Positions 7,472 through 30,787 of a stretch of 35,200 bases of DNA are shown here, one piece after another (within the stretch, counting starts at the first letter, position 1; each line of letters begins with the position of its first letter). The DNA is from Candidatus Parcubacteria bacterium (GTDB taxonomy: Bacteria; Patescibacteriota; Minisyncoccia; Phycocordibacterales; UBA2100). Under the pieces are notes generated by a model. The model had not been told where the DNA came from and did no database searches. It saw nothing but the letters and a program-made list of their open reading frames with translations. Made by a program: the position numbers and the translations under genes. The stretch is from the NCBI GenBank assembly GCA_003599295.1, contig QZJK01000015.1, positions 1 to 35,200 on the forward strand, read 5' to 3'.

Positions 7472-8407
7472 ATGACGGAAGTGTTAAAGGAAACGAACTT
7501 CACAACTCTTGGGAATAAAAAGGCCGGCAAAGTGCGCGACATATACGAACAGCCGGAGCGCCTCATACTCATCACAACCGACCGGCACTCGTCGTTCGAC
7601 CGCATCATCGCGCATATCCCGCATAAAGGGCAGGTCCTAAATCAGACGAGCGCGTGGTGGTTCGAGCAGACGAAAGACATCGTCCCGAACCATGTGCTTG
7701 CGGTCCCTGACCCGAACGTAACGGTCGGGAAACGGTGCACACTCGTACCCGTCGAAGCGGTGATGCGCGGTTATCTCACCGGCGTTACCGATACCTCTAT
7801 TTGGACACGATACTCAAAAGGCGTTCGCGAATTCGGCGGGATCACACTCCCTGACGGCATGAAGAAGAATCAGAAACTGCCCGAACCCATCTTCGACCCG
7901 ACGACGAAAGAAGAAACGCATGACCGGACGCTGACGCCGGCGGAAATGATAGCAGAGGGTTTCATTACGGCCGAGCGATTCGAGGAATTGAAGAGAACGG
8001 CTCTCGCGCTTTTCAAGCGGGGGCAGGAGCTTGCCGCAACGCGCGGCCTTATTCTCGTCGATACGAAATATGAATTCGGGACGGACGAGAAGGGAAAACT
8101 CGTGCTTATTGATGAGATACACACGCCGGACTCGTCACGCTACTGGAAGCTCGGGAGCTATGAAGAGCGCGTCGCGAAAGGCGAGGAGCCGGAATATTTC
8201 GATAAAGAGTTCCTGCGGCTGTGGTTCAAGGAGCACAGCGACCCGTACAAGGATGCGACACTCCCCGAAGCACCCGCGGAGCTTGTTGCGGAGCTTTCCA
8301 GGCGCTACATTCAAATGTACGAGCTGATAACAGGAAAGACATTCGTCCCGGGAGAGGAGCCGATACTGCCTCGCATGGAACGCAATCTAAAGAGCTATTC
8401 CATATGA
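7472..8407 (+). CDS. purC: Phosphoribosylaminoimidazole-succinocarboxamide synthase (SAICAR synthase)
   Basis: GKVRDIYE, DRHSSFDRIIAHIPHKGQVLNQTSAWWFEQTKDIVPNH, VEAVMRGYLTG, LVDTKYEFG, IDEIHTPDSSRYW. Confidence 0.95.
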   Translation: MTEVLKETNFTTLGNKKAGKVRDIYEQPERLILITTDRHSSFDRIIAHIPHKGQVLNQTSAWWFEQTKDIVPNHVLAVPDPNVTVGKRCTLVPVEAVMRGYLTGVTDTSIWTRYSKGVREFGGITLPDGMKKNQKLPEPIFDPTTKEETHDRTLTPAEMIAEGFITAERFEELKRTALALFKRGQELAATRGLILVDTKYEFGTDEKGKLVLIDEIHTPDSSRYWKLGSYEERVAKGEEPEYFDKEFLRLWFKEHSDPYKDATLPEAPAELVAELSRRYIQMYELITGKTFVPGEEPILPRMERNLKSYSI

Positions 8408-8559
8408 TTCGAAAGGATTTAATTCGACTAAAGCGAGAAAGGGGATATCGTTTTTGCCGTGTCTCGCAGCGCGTCGGCGCGAGAGGCAGCGCTGCCGGAG
8501 CACCGGCAGACAGCGACGGCAAAAATGATATTCTCAACGAGCGACCCTATGCCGCTTGA
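8404..8559 (+). CDS. Small ORF (51 aa) carried by the structured intergenic cassette; function unknown
   Basis: MIRKDLIRLKRERGYRFCRVSQRVGARGSAAGAPADSDGKNDILNERPYAA. ATGA overlap with the purC stop; its stop overlaps the purB start. Homologous in frame to ORFs at 11672-11824 and 30632-30787. Confidence 0.45.
   Translation: MIRKDLIRLKRERGYRFCRVSQRVGARGSAAGAPADSDGKNDILNERPYAA
8451..8525 (+). repeat. Family-1 structured cassette, copy 1 (purC/purB junction)
   Basis: Outer stem TTTTTGCC/GGCAAAAA; hairpin A TCTC-GCA-[GCGC]GTCG[GCGC]-GAGA; hairpin B CGCT-[GCCGG]AGCA[CCGGC]-AGAC-AGCG. Confidence 0.9.
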
Positions 8560-9940: not shown

Positions 9941-9943
9941 TGT

Positions 9944-10025
9944 AAACCGGCAGAGCCGGTTTCTGGACTCCTCGGCTCGGATATGCGAAAGCTAGCTTTC
10001 GCATATCCCTCGCATAACGCTCGCC
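9944..10025 (+). repeat. Family-2 structured repeat, copy 1 (directly 3' of purB)
   Basis: AAACCGGC-aga-GCCGGTTT hairpin, TCTGGACTCCTCGGCTC, 30-bp perfect palindrome GGATATGCGAAAGCTAGCTTTCGCATATCC (9979-10008), CTCGCATAACGCTCGCC. Second copy on the minus strand at 22912-22989. Confidence 0.85.
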
Positions 10026-11675: not shown

Positions 11676-11824
11676 ATGGTTCGCTCGTTAAGCATGGCGC
11701 TTTTGCCGTCGCTGTCTGCGACTGCTGTCGCAGCGCTGACTCTCGCGCCGACGCGCTGCGAGACACGGCAAAAGTGCCATGCTCGCACTCGTTTATTAGT
11801 TATTATGTGGTTGCTTCGCATCAT
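11672..11824 (-). CDS. Small ORF (50 aa) of family-1 cassette copy 2
   Basis: MMRSNHIITNKRVRAWHFCRVSQRVGARVSAATAVADSDGKSAMLNERTI. ATGA overlap with the ATPase stop at its start and with the permease start at its end. Confidence 0.5.
   Translation of the reverse strand: MMRSNHIITNKRVRAWHFCRVSQRVGARVSAATAVADSDGKSAMLNERTI
11693..11781 (-). repeat. Family-1 structured cassette, copy 2
   Basis: Minus strand: outer stem CATGGCacTTTTGCC/GGCAAAAgcGCCATG; hairpin A [GCGC]GTCG[GCGC]; hairpin B [GCGAC]AGCA[GTCGC]. Confidence 0.9.
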
Positions 11825-15098: not shown

Positions 15099-16010
15099 TC
15101 AAATCGTTTCAATGCGCACTGTGTCGAAAGACACATCCATGAAGTCCGTGCGCATGCCGACGAGGTGGGCGCCGATGATCGGAGCCGTACCGCCATATTC
15201 TCCACTATCGCGCGCTTCGAGCAGTTTTTTCCACGTGCCATCCCGCCGTTCCATGTAAAGCCGTATGGTGACGCTGCCATCCGCCTCCGTTTTAGTCTCG
15301 CTGCGCAATCCTATCCAACTCTGGTGGGGAAGCATGCTAATGCGCTCTCCCGTTACATACGTTCCAGCGAATTCCTTTTTTTGCGCCATCGTATAATACG
15401 CACCGCGGTATTTTTTCTTAATGACCGCCAACCCGTCGACACGGATACCAGCGTAATACAACGTGTCGTCATTTACGTAGCGGTTCATGAGAAGGAGTCC
15501 GTTCGAAGCGTTGCGGTTAGGGCTCGTACTCCAGTTGTCTTTCAGTATCTTGAACTGCGCTTCCATGCGCACGTTTTCCCAGGTGCTTCGCGAGACAAGG
15601 CGGAATATGTTCTGTGGGTGCGCTCCGAGGTCAGTGTCGGTAGGATTCGTAAGCGCATACAGAAGGCGCCAGTAGCTCCAAAGAGGGGCATCACCTAACA
15701 TCGTATTGCCAAAACCTCCCTCGATACTGAATTGGCCTCCCGAGTTAAGCCACCAGTAGGGAGAGGTGGATTCTTCCATGTTCGGAGCTTCGTTCAAAAC
15801 GCCGGTACTTTTGAACGTGTAGACGAACGGAGAAACGATGGAAACGGCCGCAACATGCCGCGGAGGCTTTGGATTGAGAGAACTTCCCGGAAAAAGGTTA
15901 AGCGCAAGTAATACCGCGAATGCGAGGAGAAGTGGAAGAATGAATCCCTTATACTCACGCATTCCGTTCATACGCAGAGAGAACGTGTGTTTGAGTGCGT
16001 GCGCGTACAT
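15099..16010 (-). CDS. Membrane-anchored ConA-like/DUF1080-like secreted protein
   Basis: One N-terminal TM (FILPLLLAFAVLLALNLFP) and a beta-rich ectodomain (SWIGLRSETKTEADGSVTIRLYMERRDGTWKKLLEARDSG). A later Met (MREYKG) is an alternative start. Confidence 0.6.
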   Translation of the reverse strand: MYAHALKHTFSLRMNGMREYKGFILPLLLAFAVLLALNLFPGSSLNPKPPRHVAAVSIVSPFVYTFKSTGVLNEAPNMEESTSPYWWLNSGGQFSIEGGFGNTMLGDAPLWSYWRLLYALTNPTDTDLGAHPQNIFRLVSRSTWENVRMEAQFKILKDNWSTSPNRNASNGLLLMNRYVNDDTLYYAGIRVDGLAVIKKKYRGAYYTMAQKKEFAGTYVTGERISMLPHQSWIGLRSETKTEADGSVTIRLYMERRDGTWKKLLEARDSGEYGGTAPIIGAHLVGMRTDFMDVSFDTVRIETI

Positions 16011-16134
16011 TGGAGAGAGTTGTACTCGCTCCGCGCACGCCTGTCGATAGATTTATGAAGGAATTTTTTTCTCAACAACAGCCCGTTCTTCATGTCTAGC
16101 TTATAATCTCGGAAATAAGGATTTTTTCAGGAGT

Positions 16135-17739
16135 TCATGAACCGAACGGCCGCACGAGTATGCTCCAAACTTGTACTGCAGCGCTTCCAAGTTCCGGGTT
16201 CCATACTTGTATTCCGATGCCTCCTTTCGCACTCATTGCTCGGGAATACGCTTCGACGACCGATGAGTAATCCCAAAGGCATTCAATGACGGCGCCGTGC
16301 ACGCGGATGCCCATCCGAGCGCTTTCGCCGTACGCGAACTTCGGATCACGTATCTCGGCAAGTACGCGCGTTTCTCCGTTCTTTGTCGATTGGATGCGAA
16401 CTGTACCGGGAGAGAATACGCACGCGTTGTAGGTTTTCGAATTGGTAAGGTCGGCGAGAAGGAATACAGAACCATCTTGCCAATTCAAGGTGGCGTCGAA
16501 CGAATAATCCGCCCATAAAGCAGAGCCGTCGAGGAACGCGGAGGCGCTCGAGGCGCCTTCGTCGGCCCTCAACAAGAAGTTATTTGTCCCGAGATCGAGC
16601 GTTCCCCATGCCGGTATCCAGCCGCGGTCTCTCGAAAAGTCGTCTTCGAAGGGAAGCTCTTTCGGAAGGCCTCCTTCAAGCTCGCGAAGAAGCCTCTCTC
16701 CACTCCAGTCATGGTCAACGTGGATGCGACGCGCAATGAACGAACGGTCTTCTAGATAGTTGAACGTAAAATTGTTGTTATCGGTCTGGAGGAACCCAAG
16801 GTCGTACAGTTTCTCTGCCTCATCCTCGGTGATACCCGCTCCCGGAGGAAAATTTGCAGCGCCTTCGATGCCTGTTTCGTTCCCGAGAGGAAATGCGAAA
16901 GTATTAACGATAACTCCGTATTCATCTTCGAGCACTTTCCGTGCATGTGCGAGGTCATTCGAGACGCGCGCGGTGAACTCTTCAGTAGTTTCAAGCCTGC
17001 TTTCTTCTTCGAGCCACAATTTGTCTGCAAAGAAGATGCCCGTGTTGCCGTTTCTGTCCGTCGGATACGGACGATGTCCGTCGTATGAGTGAGAACCGAT
17101 CTCCCATCTTCCCGTATCGAGCATTCTCCGGAGCTCATTTGGGGAGAGATAGTAGGTGCTCTTCTCGGTATACATGGCGCTCGCAATGACGTAGATGACA
17201 CCTTCGTAGCCGAGCATATCGAAGAGTGGATCGACCGGATAAAAACTTTCTTTTGCGCCGTCGTCGAACGTGATGAGAAATGATCGTTCGGGAAGTTCAC
17301 GAGTCCCATCCATGAACTCCATGTACTCTTTGAGCGTTATGGTTTCCCAGCCGGCGCGTTTTAGGGCAAACATCTGGTCACTGAAATTTCGCACGGTCAC
17401 GTTGTTGAGGTCGTTCCGATTGCCAACGATGCGGTGGTAGGTGAGGACGGGGATCGCACGCGCCGTCCGACCCCCAGCCCCTCCCCGGGTTGCCTCCTCT
17501 TCTCCAGAGAAGAACGAGAATGCGGCGGATGCTACTTGCCCTGTTTTCCACACACTGCTTTCGATGGCGTACCGCACTCGGAGTGTAAGCTCTTGCCACG
17601 CAAAACCGATAGACGCCACAGGGGGTGTCGAGCCATATCGGCGCTCTTTTATATTGCCGGTCGCGGCAACAGATACGAGAAGCACCATGCCGATTACAAG
17701 CATGGGAAGCATTCTCCTCAATGACAAGTCGATATACAT
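16135..17739 (-). CDS. Polysaccharide deacetylase (NodB fold) with C-terminal ConA-like domain
   Basis: PVLTYHRI, FLITFDDGAKESFY, RWEIGSHSYDGH; start placed at MYIDLSLRRMLPMLVIG, because the longer ORF (to 17904) runs through the intergenic structured element. Confidence 0.83.
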   Translation of the reverse strand: MYIDLSLRRMLPMLVIGMVLLVSVAATGNIKERRYGSTPPVASIGFAWQELTLRVRYAIESSVWKTGQVASAAFSFFSGEEEATRGGAGGRTARAIPVLTYHRIVGNRNDLNNVTVRNFSDQMFALKRAGWETITLKEYMEFMDGTRELPERSFLITFDDGAKESFYPVDPLFDMLGYEGVIYVIASAMYTEKSTYYLSPNELRRMLDTGRWEIGSHSYDGHRPYPTDRNGNTGIFFADKLWLEEESRLETTEEFTARVSNDLAHARKVLEDEYGVIVNTFAFPLGNETGIEGAANFPPGAGITEDEAEKLYDLGFLQTDNNNFTFNYLEDRSFIARRIHVDHDWSGERLLRELEGGLPKELPFEDDFSRDRGWIPAWGTLDLGTNNFLLRADEGASSASAFLDGSALWADYSFDATLNWQDGSVFLLADLTNSKTYNACVFSPGTVRIQSTKNGETRVLAEIRDPKFAYGESARMGIRVHGAVIECLWDYSSVVEAYSRAMSAKGGIGIQVWNPELGSAAVQVWSILVRPFGS

Positions 17740-17749
17740 AGGGGTAATA

Positions 17750-17914
17750 TTAAGAAACTCTCGCGCTGTATATTTTGTGGAGGCACGGATATTTTTCTGC
17801 TGAAAAATTCCTCGAGTTCGCGCCGCCGCGCTCACTAGGCCCCACAAAACACACATCGCCTCGAGTTTCTCTCGGGAGGGGAGTTGGGAAGATTTTGTAT
17901 CCAAGATTCGTCAT
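17750..17914 (-). CDS. Small ORF (54 aa) spanning the intergenic structured element; function unknown
   Basis: MTNLGYKIFPTPLPRETRGDVCFVGPSERGGANSRNFSAEKYPCLHKIYSARVS; begins 2 nt after the GT2 stop and ends 10 nt before the deacetylase ATG. Confidence 0.35.
   Translation of the reverse strand: MTNLGYKIFPTPLPRETRGDVCFVGPSERGGANSRNFSAEKYPCLHKIYSARVS
17754..17869 (-). repeat. Intra-operon structured element, probable distant relative of family 1
   Basis: Nested arms GAAACTC/GAGTTTC and TTTTGTGG/CCACAAAA; on the minus strand GCGC-GGCG-GCGC and ATTTTTC-AGCA-GAAAAAT hairpins (the AGCA loop matches family-1 hairpin B). Confidence 0.6.
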
Positions 17915-17916
17915 AT

Positions 17917-19248
17917 TTATCGCGTGCCCCAGCGTGTATCACGGAGCGTCATGATCGCCCAAGGAAGCTGCCACATAAGGATGACCGTGTTGAACCAGAA
18001 GCTGCATATTGCGAGGAACCATGCACGTGGTCCGACCTGTATGCGGTAGTAGAGGCCATGAAGAAAGAGCATGAGAAATAGACCCGAAAGGTACACGATG
18101 GGCCACGTGTGGTATACGACGGGGAACCACACCATCGCGCGGAAAAATACGATGGGAGAAACGAACGCGAGGAACACATAGGAGTAGAACGAAAGCGCCG
18201 CAAGAGAATGCTTCTTCCACATGAACGACGAGGCAATGAATGTTTCGCGTATCCAAGATTTTTTCCACCGCTGCTGCTGGCGCATATATTTTCCGAACGT
18301 ATCCGGCACTATGGTATGCGCCTGCGCCTCCGACGAATAGACAGCCCGATACTTCAGTATCATGAAGTTCGTAAGAGAGCGGTCGTCGCCGTAGGTGCAT
18401 TGCACACCGAAGAATTTCTGATGCAGCCACTCGTCGATGAATTTTAGGACGTATTCACGGCGGTACGCGCTGCAGCACCCGGGGCAGCAGGTGACCGTTC
18501 CGAAAATGGATTCAGCCGCTTTGTATACCTTGAATGAAATGTAGTAGCGGACCGCCTGCATTTGTGTCAAAAGATTAGTATCTCGATTCCACACGTCCGT
18601 GTGTCCGGAAACCGCGCCGACCGATCTGTCCGCAAAATATTTCACGAGATGGCGTACGGCCGAGGGTTCGATGAAGCTGTCGGAGTCTATGAAGATGACG
18701 ATATCGTGTTCCGCGCGCTTGACCCCTTCTGCCATTCCGTACCGCTTTCCGCGGTTCACCTTGAAGTCAACGACCTCGATGCGGCGCACAGAATATCGTA
18801 TTTCCTCTGCGACCCTGTGCATTTCTTCCAGAGTTCTGTCCGTCGAGCCGTCGTTTATCGCGATGACCTCTACCTTTTCCCGTGGGTAATCCACCTCGGC
18901 GAAACGTTGTATCGTTTCAGCGATGTGCGCTTCTTCGTTCTTCGCGGGAACGACGAACGTGACCGTCGGTTCATATCGCACGTCGACCTGAACGGGTTTG
19001 TGCACGTACGCGAGGAGAAAACGCGAGAGTATGTACGTCGTAATGAGCACGCTGTAGAAGCCGAAGAAAAGATGATTCGACAGCGCTTCGTAAAACACTA
19101 CTTTGTAAATGAGTATCACGTAGACGACGCCGAAGAAGACGAACCACCACCCAAGGTCGCCGACTTTTTGCGCCGTACTTCCGAAATCGCTAAAGACAGC
19201 TCCTTTCGGATTCTTGTTCGTTTCTGGCAGGTGATTGTGTGTGTTCAT
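17917..19248 (-). CDS. Processive family-2 glycosyltransferase (hyaluronan/chitin synthase-like)
   Basis: TFVVPAKNEEAHIAETIQ, AINDGSTDRT, IFIDSDSFIEP, GDDRSLTNF, QQQRWKKSW (QxxRW), several TM segments. Confidence 0.9.
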   Translation of the reverse strand: MNTHNHLPETNKNPKGAVFSDFGSTAQKVGDLGWWFVFFGVVYVILIYKVVFYEALSNHLFFGFYSVLITTYILSRFLLAYVHKPVQVDVRYEPTVTFVVPAKNEEAHIAETIQRFAEVDYPREKVEVIAINDGSTDRTLEEMHRVAEEIRYSVRRIEVVDFKVNRGKRYGMAEGVKRAEHDIVIFIDSDSFIEPSAVRHLVKYFADRSVGAVSGHTDVWNRDTNLLTQMQAVRYYISFKVYKAAESIFGTVTCCPGCCSAYRREYVLKFIDEWLHQKFFGVQCTYGDDRSLTNFMILKYRAVYSSEAQAHTIVPDTFGKYMRQQQRWKKSWIRETFIASSFMWKKHSLAALSFYSYVFLAFVSPIVFFRAMVWFPVVYHTWPIVYLSGLFLMLFLHGLYYRIQVGPRAWFLAICSFWFNTVILMWQLPWAIMTLRDTRWGTR

Positions 19249-19251
19249 ACA

Positions 19252-20586
19252 TTATCTTCCTATCCCGCGATAGGTAATACCTTTTCGTTCGAACGCATCC
19301 TTGTCGAGGCAGTTGCGTCCATCCACTACGATATCGACGCCGCACTCTTCGAAATCTTCCGGACCAAGCGCCTTGAATATCGAATGGTCGGTCGCAATGA
19401 GAGCCGCGTCAGCCCCAGTCAGCGCCTTTTCAAGGTCGCTTGCGGTCGAAGCGCCGGGGATGTACGGGTCGTACACGTTCACTGTCGCCCCGGCTTTTGA
19501 GAGAAGGTTCTTTATGACGACCGCGGGGCTTTCGCGCATGTCGGGCACATCGCGTTTGTAGGATAGGCCGAGGAGTGCCACGGTCGAACCTTTCAGTTTC
19601 TTCTTTTTTTCTCGGAGCGTTCGTTCAAGCGCGCGCACTGCATAACGAGGCATGCCGCTGTTGATGCGGCGCGCGGTCACGAGGAACTGGTGTTCAAACC
19701 CGTTCTCGCGGCCATATCGGATGAGGTAGTACGGATCGACGGGAATGCAGTGTCCTCCGACGCCGCAGCCGGGATAGAACGGCATGAATCCGAACGGCTT
19801 CGTCGAGGCTCCCTCGATGACGTTCACAAGGTCGATACCGGCTCTGTCGAAGCTAATGGCAAGCTCGTTCACGAACGCGATGTTGATGTCGCGGAATGCG
19901 TTTTCCATCATCTTGACCGCTTCGGCCTCCTTGATGCCTTTCATGCGGATTATTTCGCCGTCAATGAGCGAACTGTATAAAAAAACGGTTCTTTCAAGCG
20001 CTTCCTCGGTCAGTCCTCCGACAACGCGCGGTATCGTGCGCACGTTCCATTTTTCGTCGCCCGGATTAATGCGCTCCGGACAGTGGGCAAAATGGAATTC
20101 GTCCCTTGAGAGTCCCGATACGCGTTCGAGAATAGGAAGCGCGACCGCTTCGCAGACTCCCGGGCTTACAGTCGACTCGATGACGACTAAGGCGCCGTAG
20201 GCAAGGTGCCGGCCTACTATCTCGCACGCGCCTTCAAGCGGCCGGAGATCTGGCAGGCGATTCTCGTGGACAGGCGTGGGCACGCAGACGATGTACGCAT
20301 CAAGGCCCTCGAGGTCGCGTTCTTCGGCGGTCACGGAAAGCGCTCCGGCGCGCTTGAATTGCACCGCCTCTTCGGCATTCAGGAATCCTGCTTCACGGCG
20401 CATGAGCTGCGCTATTTTCTTTTCGTCAATATCGAATCCGACGACGCGGAACCTACGCTCTGCCGCGAGAATAGATAAAGGAAGCCCGACGTACCCAAGA
20501 CCGATGACGCCGACGGACGTTATTGTTCGGTGATTGGTTTGTAAGGAAGTGTATGAACGTTCTTTTTCGAGGTAATCGAGTGACAT
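19252..20586 (-). CDS. Nucleotide-sugar dehydrogenase (UDP-Glc/GDP-Man/UDP-ManNAc dehydrogenase family)
   Basis: VGVIGLGYVGLPLSI; ESTVSPGVCE; PERINPGDEKW; YPGCGVGGHCIPVDPYYL (catalytic Cys); GLSYKRDVPDMRESPA. Confidence 0.93.
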   Translation of the reverse strand: MSLDYLEKERSYTSLQTNHRTITSVGVIGLGYVGLPLSILAAERRFRVVGFDIDEKKIAQLMRREAGFLNAEEAVQFKRAGALSVTAEERDLEGLDAYIVCVPTPVHENRLPDLRPLEGACEIVGRHLAYGALVVIESTVSPGVCEAVALPILERVSGLSRDEFHFAHCPERINPGDEKWNVRTIPRVVGGLTEEALERTVFLYSSLIDGEIIRMKGIKEAEAVKMMENAFRDINIAFVNELAISFDRAGIDLVNVIEGASTKPFGFMPFYPGCGVGGHCIPVDPYYLIRYGRENGFEHQFLVTARRINSGMPRYAVRALERTLREKKKKLKGSTVALLGLSYKRDVPDMRESPAVVIKNLLSKAGATVNVYDPYIPGASTASDLEKALTGADAALIATDHSIFKALGPEDFEECGVDIVVDGRNCLDKDAFERKGITYRGIGR

Positions 20587-20626: not shown

Positions 20627-20717
20627 GGAGGTGAGACGTTCAAGAATGTGTGGAGATTTCGTCTTTTCCGCACCACACAATGCAGGACATGAAGCGAAGA
20701 TGAATGTACCCGCATAT

Positions 20718-20783
20718 AGCCGGGGAGGCCGCGCCCATTCTCGACTGCGGCCTCCCCGGCTCACTCGGTCCCTTCCAGGGACC
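20718..20783. repeat. Double-hairpin structured intergenic region
   Basis: 15-bp perfect stem AGCCGGGGAGGCCGC/GCGGCCTCCCCGGCT (14-nt loop), followed by GGTCCCT-tcc-AGGGACC; no U-tract on either strand. Confidence 0.75.
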
Positions 20784-22911: not shown

Positions 22912-22989
22912 GGCGAGCGTTGCGAGCGAAATGCAAAAGTGCTCTTTTGCATTTCCGAGCCGAGGAGTCCAGAAACCGGAAGAGCCGGT
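22912..22989 (-). repeat. Family-2 structured repeat, copy 2 (directly 3' of the DUF1761 gene)
   Basis: Minus strand ACCGGCTCTTCCGGTTTCTGGACTCCTCGGCTCGGAAATGCAAAAGAGCACTTTTGCATTTCGCTCGCAACGCTCGC; matches 9944-10025 outside the re-paired stem. Confidence 0.85.
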
Positions 22990-23010
22990 GTACAATCGTC
23001 GCTTTTCTGT

Positions 23011-30635: not shown

Positions 30636-30787
30636 AAGAGGGGCGCTCGGAGCGCCATTCTCCTCGGGTCGCTGTCTGGCCGTGCTCGGCCAGCGCTCAC
30701 TCTCGGCCCGACGGCCTGCGAGAGACCCTCGGAGAACGATGCCCCTCGCTCAATTAGCTTATAGTGGTCGCTTCGCGTCATATTCAT
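30632..30787 (-). CDS. Small ORF (51 aa) of family-1 cassette copy 3
   Basis: MNMTRSDHYKLIERGASFSEGLSQAVGPRVSAGRARPDSDPRRMALRAPLL; ATGA overlap with the downstream ATPase start. Confidence 0.48.
   Translation of the reverse strand: MNMTRSDHYKLIERGASFSEGLSQAVGPRVSAGRARPDSDPRRMALRAPLL
30638..30747 (-). repeat. Family-1 structured cassette, copy 3
   Basis: Outer GAGGGGC/GCCCCTC and TTCTCCgaGG/CCgaGGAGAA; hairpin A [GGCC]GTCG[GGCC]; hairpin B [GGCCG]AGCA[CGGCC]; extra GGCGCTC-G-GAGCGCC hairpin at 30642-30656. Confidence 0.9.

Follow-up and report, generated by a model that had tools for sequence, protein, structure and literature searches.

The junction between the GT2 gene and the polysaccharide deacetylase gene in this DNA, which belongs to an ultra-small Candidatus Kaiserbacteria bacterium, raises the question of what the strongly foldable sequence between them is: a small gene, a regulatory RNA of the operon, or a repeat that has arrived from elsewhere. 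The preliminary description took it for a fourth, divergent member of a family with three clear copies in the window, that is, the whole stretch of 35,200 nucleotides analysed here, and we keep the name copy 4. Its parts and its two neighbours are as follows.

17917..19248, minus strand: GT2 gene (NodC/PgaC-like), upstream, assigned by profile matches
17914..17915: TA, 5′ flank of copy 4 (target dinucleotide); the other copies of the window, like filled orthologous sites, usually have TA on both sides
17741..17913, minus strand: inserted element, 173 nt, starting TGACGAATC... and ending ...TTACCCC
17863..17870, minus strand: 5′ arm AGAAACTC of the outermost stem, an inverted repeat typical of the GAAACTC subtype
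17842..17859, minus strand: 5′ arm of the long outer stem, an inverted repeat (83% complementary) and covariance-model match
17816..17835, minus strand: hairpin A of the three-way junction, GT-GA-GCGC-GGCG-GCGC-GA-AC, from the fold and the covariance alignment
17787..17811, minus strand: hairpin B, GGA-ATTTTTC-AGCA-GAAAAAT-A-TCC, from the fold, with AGCA tetraloop and a bulged A on the 3′ side
17763..17780, minus strand: 3′ arm of the long outer stem, inverted repeat and covariance-model match
17753..17760, minus strand: 3′ arm GAGTTTCT of the outermost stem, inverted repeat
17750..17914, minus strand: 54-codon ORF, regarded as a by-product of the insertion
17739..17740: TA, 3′ flank of copy 4, which with the next base makes the deacetylase ATG (17739-17737)
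16135..17739, minus strand: polysaccharide deacetylase gene (PgaB-like), downstream, 534 aa, start corrected to ATG 17739 (Pfam PF01522; orthologue starts)

The pairings named in the preliminary description were recovered from the minus strand: GAAACTC/GAGTTTC at 17863-17869/17754-17760, TTTTGTGG/CCACAAAA at 17842-17849/17773-17780 within the long outer stem, GCGC-GGCG-GCGC of hairpin A at 17820-17831, and ATTTTTC-AGCA-GAAAAAT at 17791-17808, where the tetraloop, a 7-bp stem and the bulged A are all present. The fold of this strand has an energy of -57.6 kcal/mol (z = -5.7 relative to shuffled sequences). The ORF has the spacing reported for it, beginning 2 nt past the GT2 stop (TAA 17919-17917) and stopping 10 nt before ATG 17739. 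Equally justified was the warning that a frame-shifted read-through would lengthen the deacetylase N-terminus: an ORF with a TTG start (16135-17904) crosses the element in another frame, and the first codon of the orthologous deacetylases, which matches ATG 17739 (MYIDLS / MYVDFS / MYLDLS), shows it to be a mis-start. The match of the deacetylase to TIGR03938 was below the cut-off. The exact 9-bp direct repeat CCTCGAGTT does occur at 17810-17818 and 17859-17867, but L016, the copy closest to copy 4, does not have it, and we therefore take it as incidental; about 3% of shuffles contain a repeat like it.

The same pair of genes is found in six relatives (G012, G014, G025, G028, G030 and G021) whose junction has no counterpart of the element. 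G012 reads ...GGCACTCGATAAATATATGTACCTCG, against ...GGCACGCGATAAA-TA-[173 nt]-TA-TGTATATCG here, and since the relatives without the element keep the same GT2/deacetylase junction, copy 4 is an insertion. Their empty site reads TATA, which is compatible with a TA that was duplicated or one that was borne by the element. Orthologous junctions were found empty at three sites in all; which species are filled and which empty varies, and subtypes differ at the same junction. At the junction of purC and purB three genomes are filled by the family: the filled sequence is CCA-TA-[TGATTCG...GACCC]-TA-TGCCGCTTGAAC and that of the empty relatives TATGCCATTTGAAC, so that the TGA of the element now terminates purC and the 3′ TA re-creates the start of purB. 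Between the ABC ATPase and permease genes the family, in differing subtypes, is present in 6 of the 30 genomes shown, the rest being empty or carrying other inserts. The TA on both sides at these two junctions fits a duplication of TA and equally an element that ends in TA. It may be noted that mobility is read here from filled and empty sites, and that the presence of several copies at one junction could reflect old, inherited insertions.

Over the genus as a whole (L157-L186) the ATPase/permease junction is an insertion hotspot, with several kinds of cassette at one stop/start junction. Reading of the translations points to a GIY-YIG-like gene and to putative four-helix ORFs like those intervening in 23S rRNA among the inserts. 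One insert of about 130 nt (L172, G030:C2) is bounded by palindromes (CCCGGTAGTAGATTTTGGCGA.../...TCGCCAAAATTCACTACCGGG) and uses the same TA, without the three-way-junction core.

Membership of the family was decided with a covariance model, R1, built from six copies with copy 4 excluded. These six are the three clear copies of the window, given below, and three more elsewhere in the genome.

8405..8547, plus strand: c1, between purC and purB, TA-flanked; R1 127.9 bits; junction empty in relatives
11677..11823, minus strand: c2, between ABC ATPase and permease genes, TA-flanked; R1 133 bits; most relatives empty there
30637..30780, minus strand: c3, upstream of an ABC ATPase gene, TA-flanked; R1 111.4 bits

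R1 matches copy 4 in full length (51.5 bits, E=5.5e-13). The match spans 17745-17863 and model positions 1-120, while the next unrelated match in the window reaches 13.9 bits. Its place as a fourth, divergent member therefore stands, and a joint covariance model with the window's first family is supported; R1 as it is already finds copies of the copy-4 subtype. The whole genome holds nine sense-strand sites, including two more that are divergent (C2:7231 and C4:164). The copy on C4, L016, is the nearest relative, having GAAACTC...GAGTTTC, CTAGYGAGCGCGRCGGCGCGARCTCGAGGAA and the AGCA hairpin in common with copy 4. One proposed resemblance fell: the linker GGGGCCTAGTGAGCGC had been likened to GGGCCGAGAGTGAGCGC of copy 3, a comparison of the 5′ side of hairpin A with the 3′ side of the same hairpin in copy 3. 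In the covariance alignment GGGGCCTAGTGAGCGC falls opposite the 5′ side, not the 3′ side, and judged by this alignment the likeness is not one of homology.

Further copies across CPR genomes are many, with folds that can be aligned, and they measure about 140-175 nt. The family occurs in 42 of the 52 genomes of the genus (Candidatus Kaiserbacteria) with 1 to 21 copies each, its core being common to some 300 copies there, and in 9 of 142 genomes (7 genera) sampled from the class. Records with the exact core come from Candidatus Kaiserbacteria, Nomurabacteria and Zambryskibacteria, besides other Parcubacteria and bacteria; no match was seen in viral contigs with the two patterns searched or in plasmid records with c2. 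The copy-4 form of hairpin B recurs in L016, L046, L177, L296 and L303. Since L296 and L303 are distant relatives from other genera of the class with a hairpin closely similar to ATTTTTC-AGCA-GAAAAAT, copy 4 is similar to a form that is widespread in the class. No Rfam family scored above its gathering score, the best matches of c2 being far below the cut-off, and no description of the element family was found in the open-access literature.

The six-copy alignment has one structure, made of an outer stem, hairpin A (CTC-GCA-GNNC-GWCG-GNNC-GA-GAG) and hairpin B (GCG-CTGNNNN-AGCA-NNNNCAG-A-C-A-GC), with 97.7% of cells paired and changes on both sides in 20 of the 36 pairs, a result reached by 0 of 500 shuffles. 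In hairpin A the family has an internal loop GCA/GA and a tetraloop G[A/T]CG; at the same places copy 4 has the altered letters GA/GA and GGCG, and L016 has GACG. At the core lies a three-way junction whose loops hardly vary; it is set inside an outer stem whose sequence drifts and yet keeps pairing. Over 142 aligned matches the unpaired letters of the core are mostly 90-100% conserved and those of the AGCA hairpin about 83-98%, against 30-70% for most letters of the outer stem, which nevertheless pairs in about 95% of its 2690 cells (Watson-Crick 2401, G·U 149, A·C 25, other 115). The element is thus recognisable better by its shape than by its letters, the sequence drifting almost freely.

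The imperfect pairs tell which strand matters. G·U outnumbers A·C in the outer stem by 149:25, counts that ignore shared ancestry, and by 88:18 in the ungapped arms only (p=3e-12, shared ancestry again ignored), a way of counting that gives G·U no advantage over A·C. A mutational process on double-stranded DNA alone should leave G·T and A·C alike, and strand-biased deamination in transcribed DNA should reverse the bias in antisense copies, whereas copies antisense to both neighbours still have 61:14 (shared ancestry ignored). One strand of the element itself therefore folds and matters. The folding strand is the same whichever way a copy lies relative to the genes, and the counts fit RNA or single-stranded DNA alike.

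We consider it probable, at roughly 75%, that copy 4 is an inserted copy of a small, dispersed, non-autonomous, TA-flanked mobile element whose folded single strand is recognised in trans. The best reading of the family as a whole is a new one of such elements, comparable to ERIC and RPE, with its single-strand fold under selection. An enzyme supplied in trans would recognise the folded strand, either as single-stranded DNA at the replication fork or as the element's own RNA, and would then move the element to TA sites. Copies would persist where the ends of the element mend the damage, its 5′ TGA giving a stop and its 3′ ...CCC-TA restoring a TATG start, or, read backwards, its end TAGGG restoring a TAG stop. 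Template switching from one arm to the other may contribute to the perfection of the outer stem.

As to which enzyme this could be, Y1 transposases act on folded single strands, and a REPIN/RAYT-like system, in which a resident Y1 tyrosine transposase recognises and spreads the single-stranded fold, would be a special case of the mobile-element reading. Strand-specific folding suits an enzyme of single-stranded DNA, and Y1 proteins (PF01797, most of them in ORFs of about 220-260 aa) are present in 44 of the 52 genus genomes, with one in this genome. Yet Y1 count and copy number are uncorrelated over the 52 genomes (rho=0.04); five genomes with copies have no Y1 match, and G042 has 15 Y1 and no copy. 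No GTAG/GTGG head was seen beside the stems and, comparing coordinates among the matches listed, no Y1 gene is flanked by copies, so we regard this special case as doubtful and the Y1/RAYT link was set aside. IS630-type DDE_3 transposases are the usual TA-targeting family, but they occur in 1 of the 52 genomes and not in this one, and IS630 was rejected as the mobiliser. Reverse transcriptases (18 of the 52 genomes) were rejected likewise, being absent from this genome and uncorrelated with copies.

An unlikely alternative is that pairing is kept mainly by mutation, through template switching in quasi-palindromes, and not by selection on the fold. Hairpins are known to arise and to be maintained by this process (PMC8794818), and the outer stem, different in every copy, is nevertheless long and in many cases perfect. 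Acting on double-stranded DNA the process should leave G·T and A·C equally, while G·U exceeds A·C by about 4:1 or more in every context, and the invariant unpaired loops are left unexplained.

More remote still is a cis-regulatory or translational-coupling RNA, by which the folded GT2-deacetylase mRNA tunes translation of the downstream gene. The window copies do lie in sense orientation between coupled genes, often with ATGA overlaps, and the sense-strand fold is strong. The co-directional context noted in the preliminary description is true of these copies but is not a rule of the family: of 128 copies whose neighbouring genes were called by a simple method based on codon usage, 62 have both neighbours antisense and just 26 have both sense. 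The strand-specific pairing is retained in antisense copies, the element is tied to no one gene type, and most orthologous junctions are without it. A leader RNA of the downstream gene was rejected on the orientation counts and the antisense pairing test. Of 88 copies with a minus-strand gene on the 3′ side, 63 have the stop codon of that gene no more than 16 nt from the element end, where ...CCC-TA gives TAG-GG when read backwards. Tolerance is the better explanation of the open frame, with insertions surviving where the element ends leave the gene ends intact.

That the locus is instead a small-protein gene of the operon (MTNLGYKIF...), the DNA structure being secondary, is scarcely credible: a frame is open over almost the whole interval between the GT2 stop and the deacetylase start and the peptides of the close copies c1-c3 can be aligned, but there is no Pfam or NCBIfam match, the core is read NFSAEKY in copy 4 and, in another frame, IFQQKNR in the copy of G014, the frame is open in 57 of 102 uncoupled against 6 of 12 coupled copies (a crude count), and the stems change on both sides regardless of codons. 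The idea of a peptide conserved across copies was accordingly dropped.

In size, palindromy, TA ends and occasional ORFs the family appears to work like ERIC, RUP and RPE, and by this analogy it would best be filed among the small palindromic mobile elements. ERIC (also IRU, RU-1) of enterobacteria, which we compared by its description, is a palindromic intergenic element of about 127 bp with TA at both ends that is cotranscribed with its neighbours and carries ORFs (PMC2229807). It differs in having a 7-bp terminal inverted repeat where the main type of our family has no inverted-repeat termini, and in belonging to a different phylum; the family core is a branched three-way junction with stems that drift with compensation. 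The Rickettsia palindromic elements are likewise palindromic insertions (105-146 bp) that stay open for translation (PMC2229807), but they are known as in-frame fusions inside proteins, whereas the present family lies between genes at stop and start codons and its peptide is not conserved. RUP and other MITEs mobilised by IS630 are also short, intergenic and targeted to TA (PMC2229807), but besides the scarcity of IS630-type transposase in the genus, terminal repeats (TAGAGCATGTT...) are confined to a minority subtype. The inverted termini that MITEs share with an autonomous element have no equivalent, since the termini of the main type show no common inverted repeats and no partner was found; a search with the minority-subtype repeat TAGAGCATGTTTTGAAAAC gave 5 matches in 4 genomes with no gene seen between. 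REP/REPIN sequences resemble the family as palindromes that can fold as single strands and keep complementary changes (PMC2817692), and Y1 genes are present in most genomes of the genus, but the family has a much larger, branched fold, no GT(A/G)G head and, among the matches listed, no copy-flanked RAYT gene. The attC sites of integrons conserve structure, leave the stem sequence free and fold on one strand, as does this family, which differs in inserting at TA in any orientation with no cassette arrays seen.

Because the minority subtype has true terminal repeats around the same core, the core may be a module shared between different carriers. Seven copies (L037, L078, L083, L097, L108, L131 and L132) have terminal repeats TAGAGCATGTTYNGAAA... 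with the family core inside; L289 and L291, the latter pair including a site in the present genome (C13:1634), have the same terminal repeats and no score with R1. Tentatively, one may go further and picture an element whose identity lies in its shape: on one strand it keeps only a few dozen letters of loops and junction and, for the rest, any stem that is complementary, and an enzyme of single-stranded DNA or RNA would recognise this three-way junction and insert it at TA. If true, the Candidate Phyla Radiation would harbour a class of transposable element unlike both terminal-repeat MITEs and REPs. Streamlined CPR genomes are thought to hold little dispensable DNA; the family nonetheless occupies most genomes of one genus, with up to about 20 copies. 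Ordinary repeat finders easily miss it, as the copies share shape more than letters, and it causes false small ORFs and wrong N-termini in annotation. It also makes a clear-cut test case for which form of a mobile element selection acts on, RNA or single-stranded DNA.

The surrounding region (15099-20586) is an operon of a UDP-glucose dehydrogenase-like protein, the NodC/PgaC-like GT2, the PgaB-like deacetylase and an uncharacterised 303-aa protein. Close homologues of its GT2 are present in only 7 of the 52 genus genomes. The operon is an ordinary polysaccharide locus with no visible connection to the element. Another palindromic family, unrelated to this one, has two copies elsewhere in the window, at 9941-10014 (plus strand) and 22921-22994 (minus strand), reading CCGGTTTCTGGACTCCTCGGCTCGG..TGC(G/A)AAAG....CTTT(T/C)GCA..CTCGC, and the arms of their central hairpins differ compatibly. 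A long GC-rich hairpin (GAGTGAGCCGGGGAGGCCGC...GCGGCCTCCCCGGCTATATG) at 20697-20781, downstream of a response-regulator/histidine-kinase block, scores weakly with R1 on both strands and is probably a different palindrome or a terminator.
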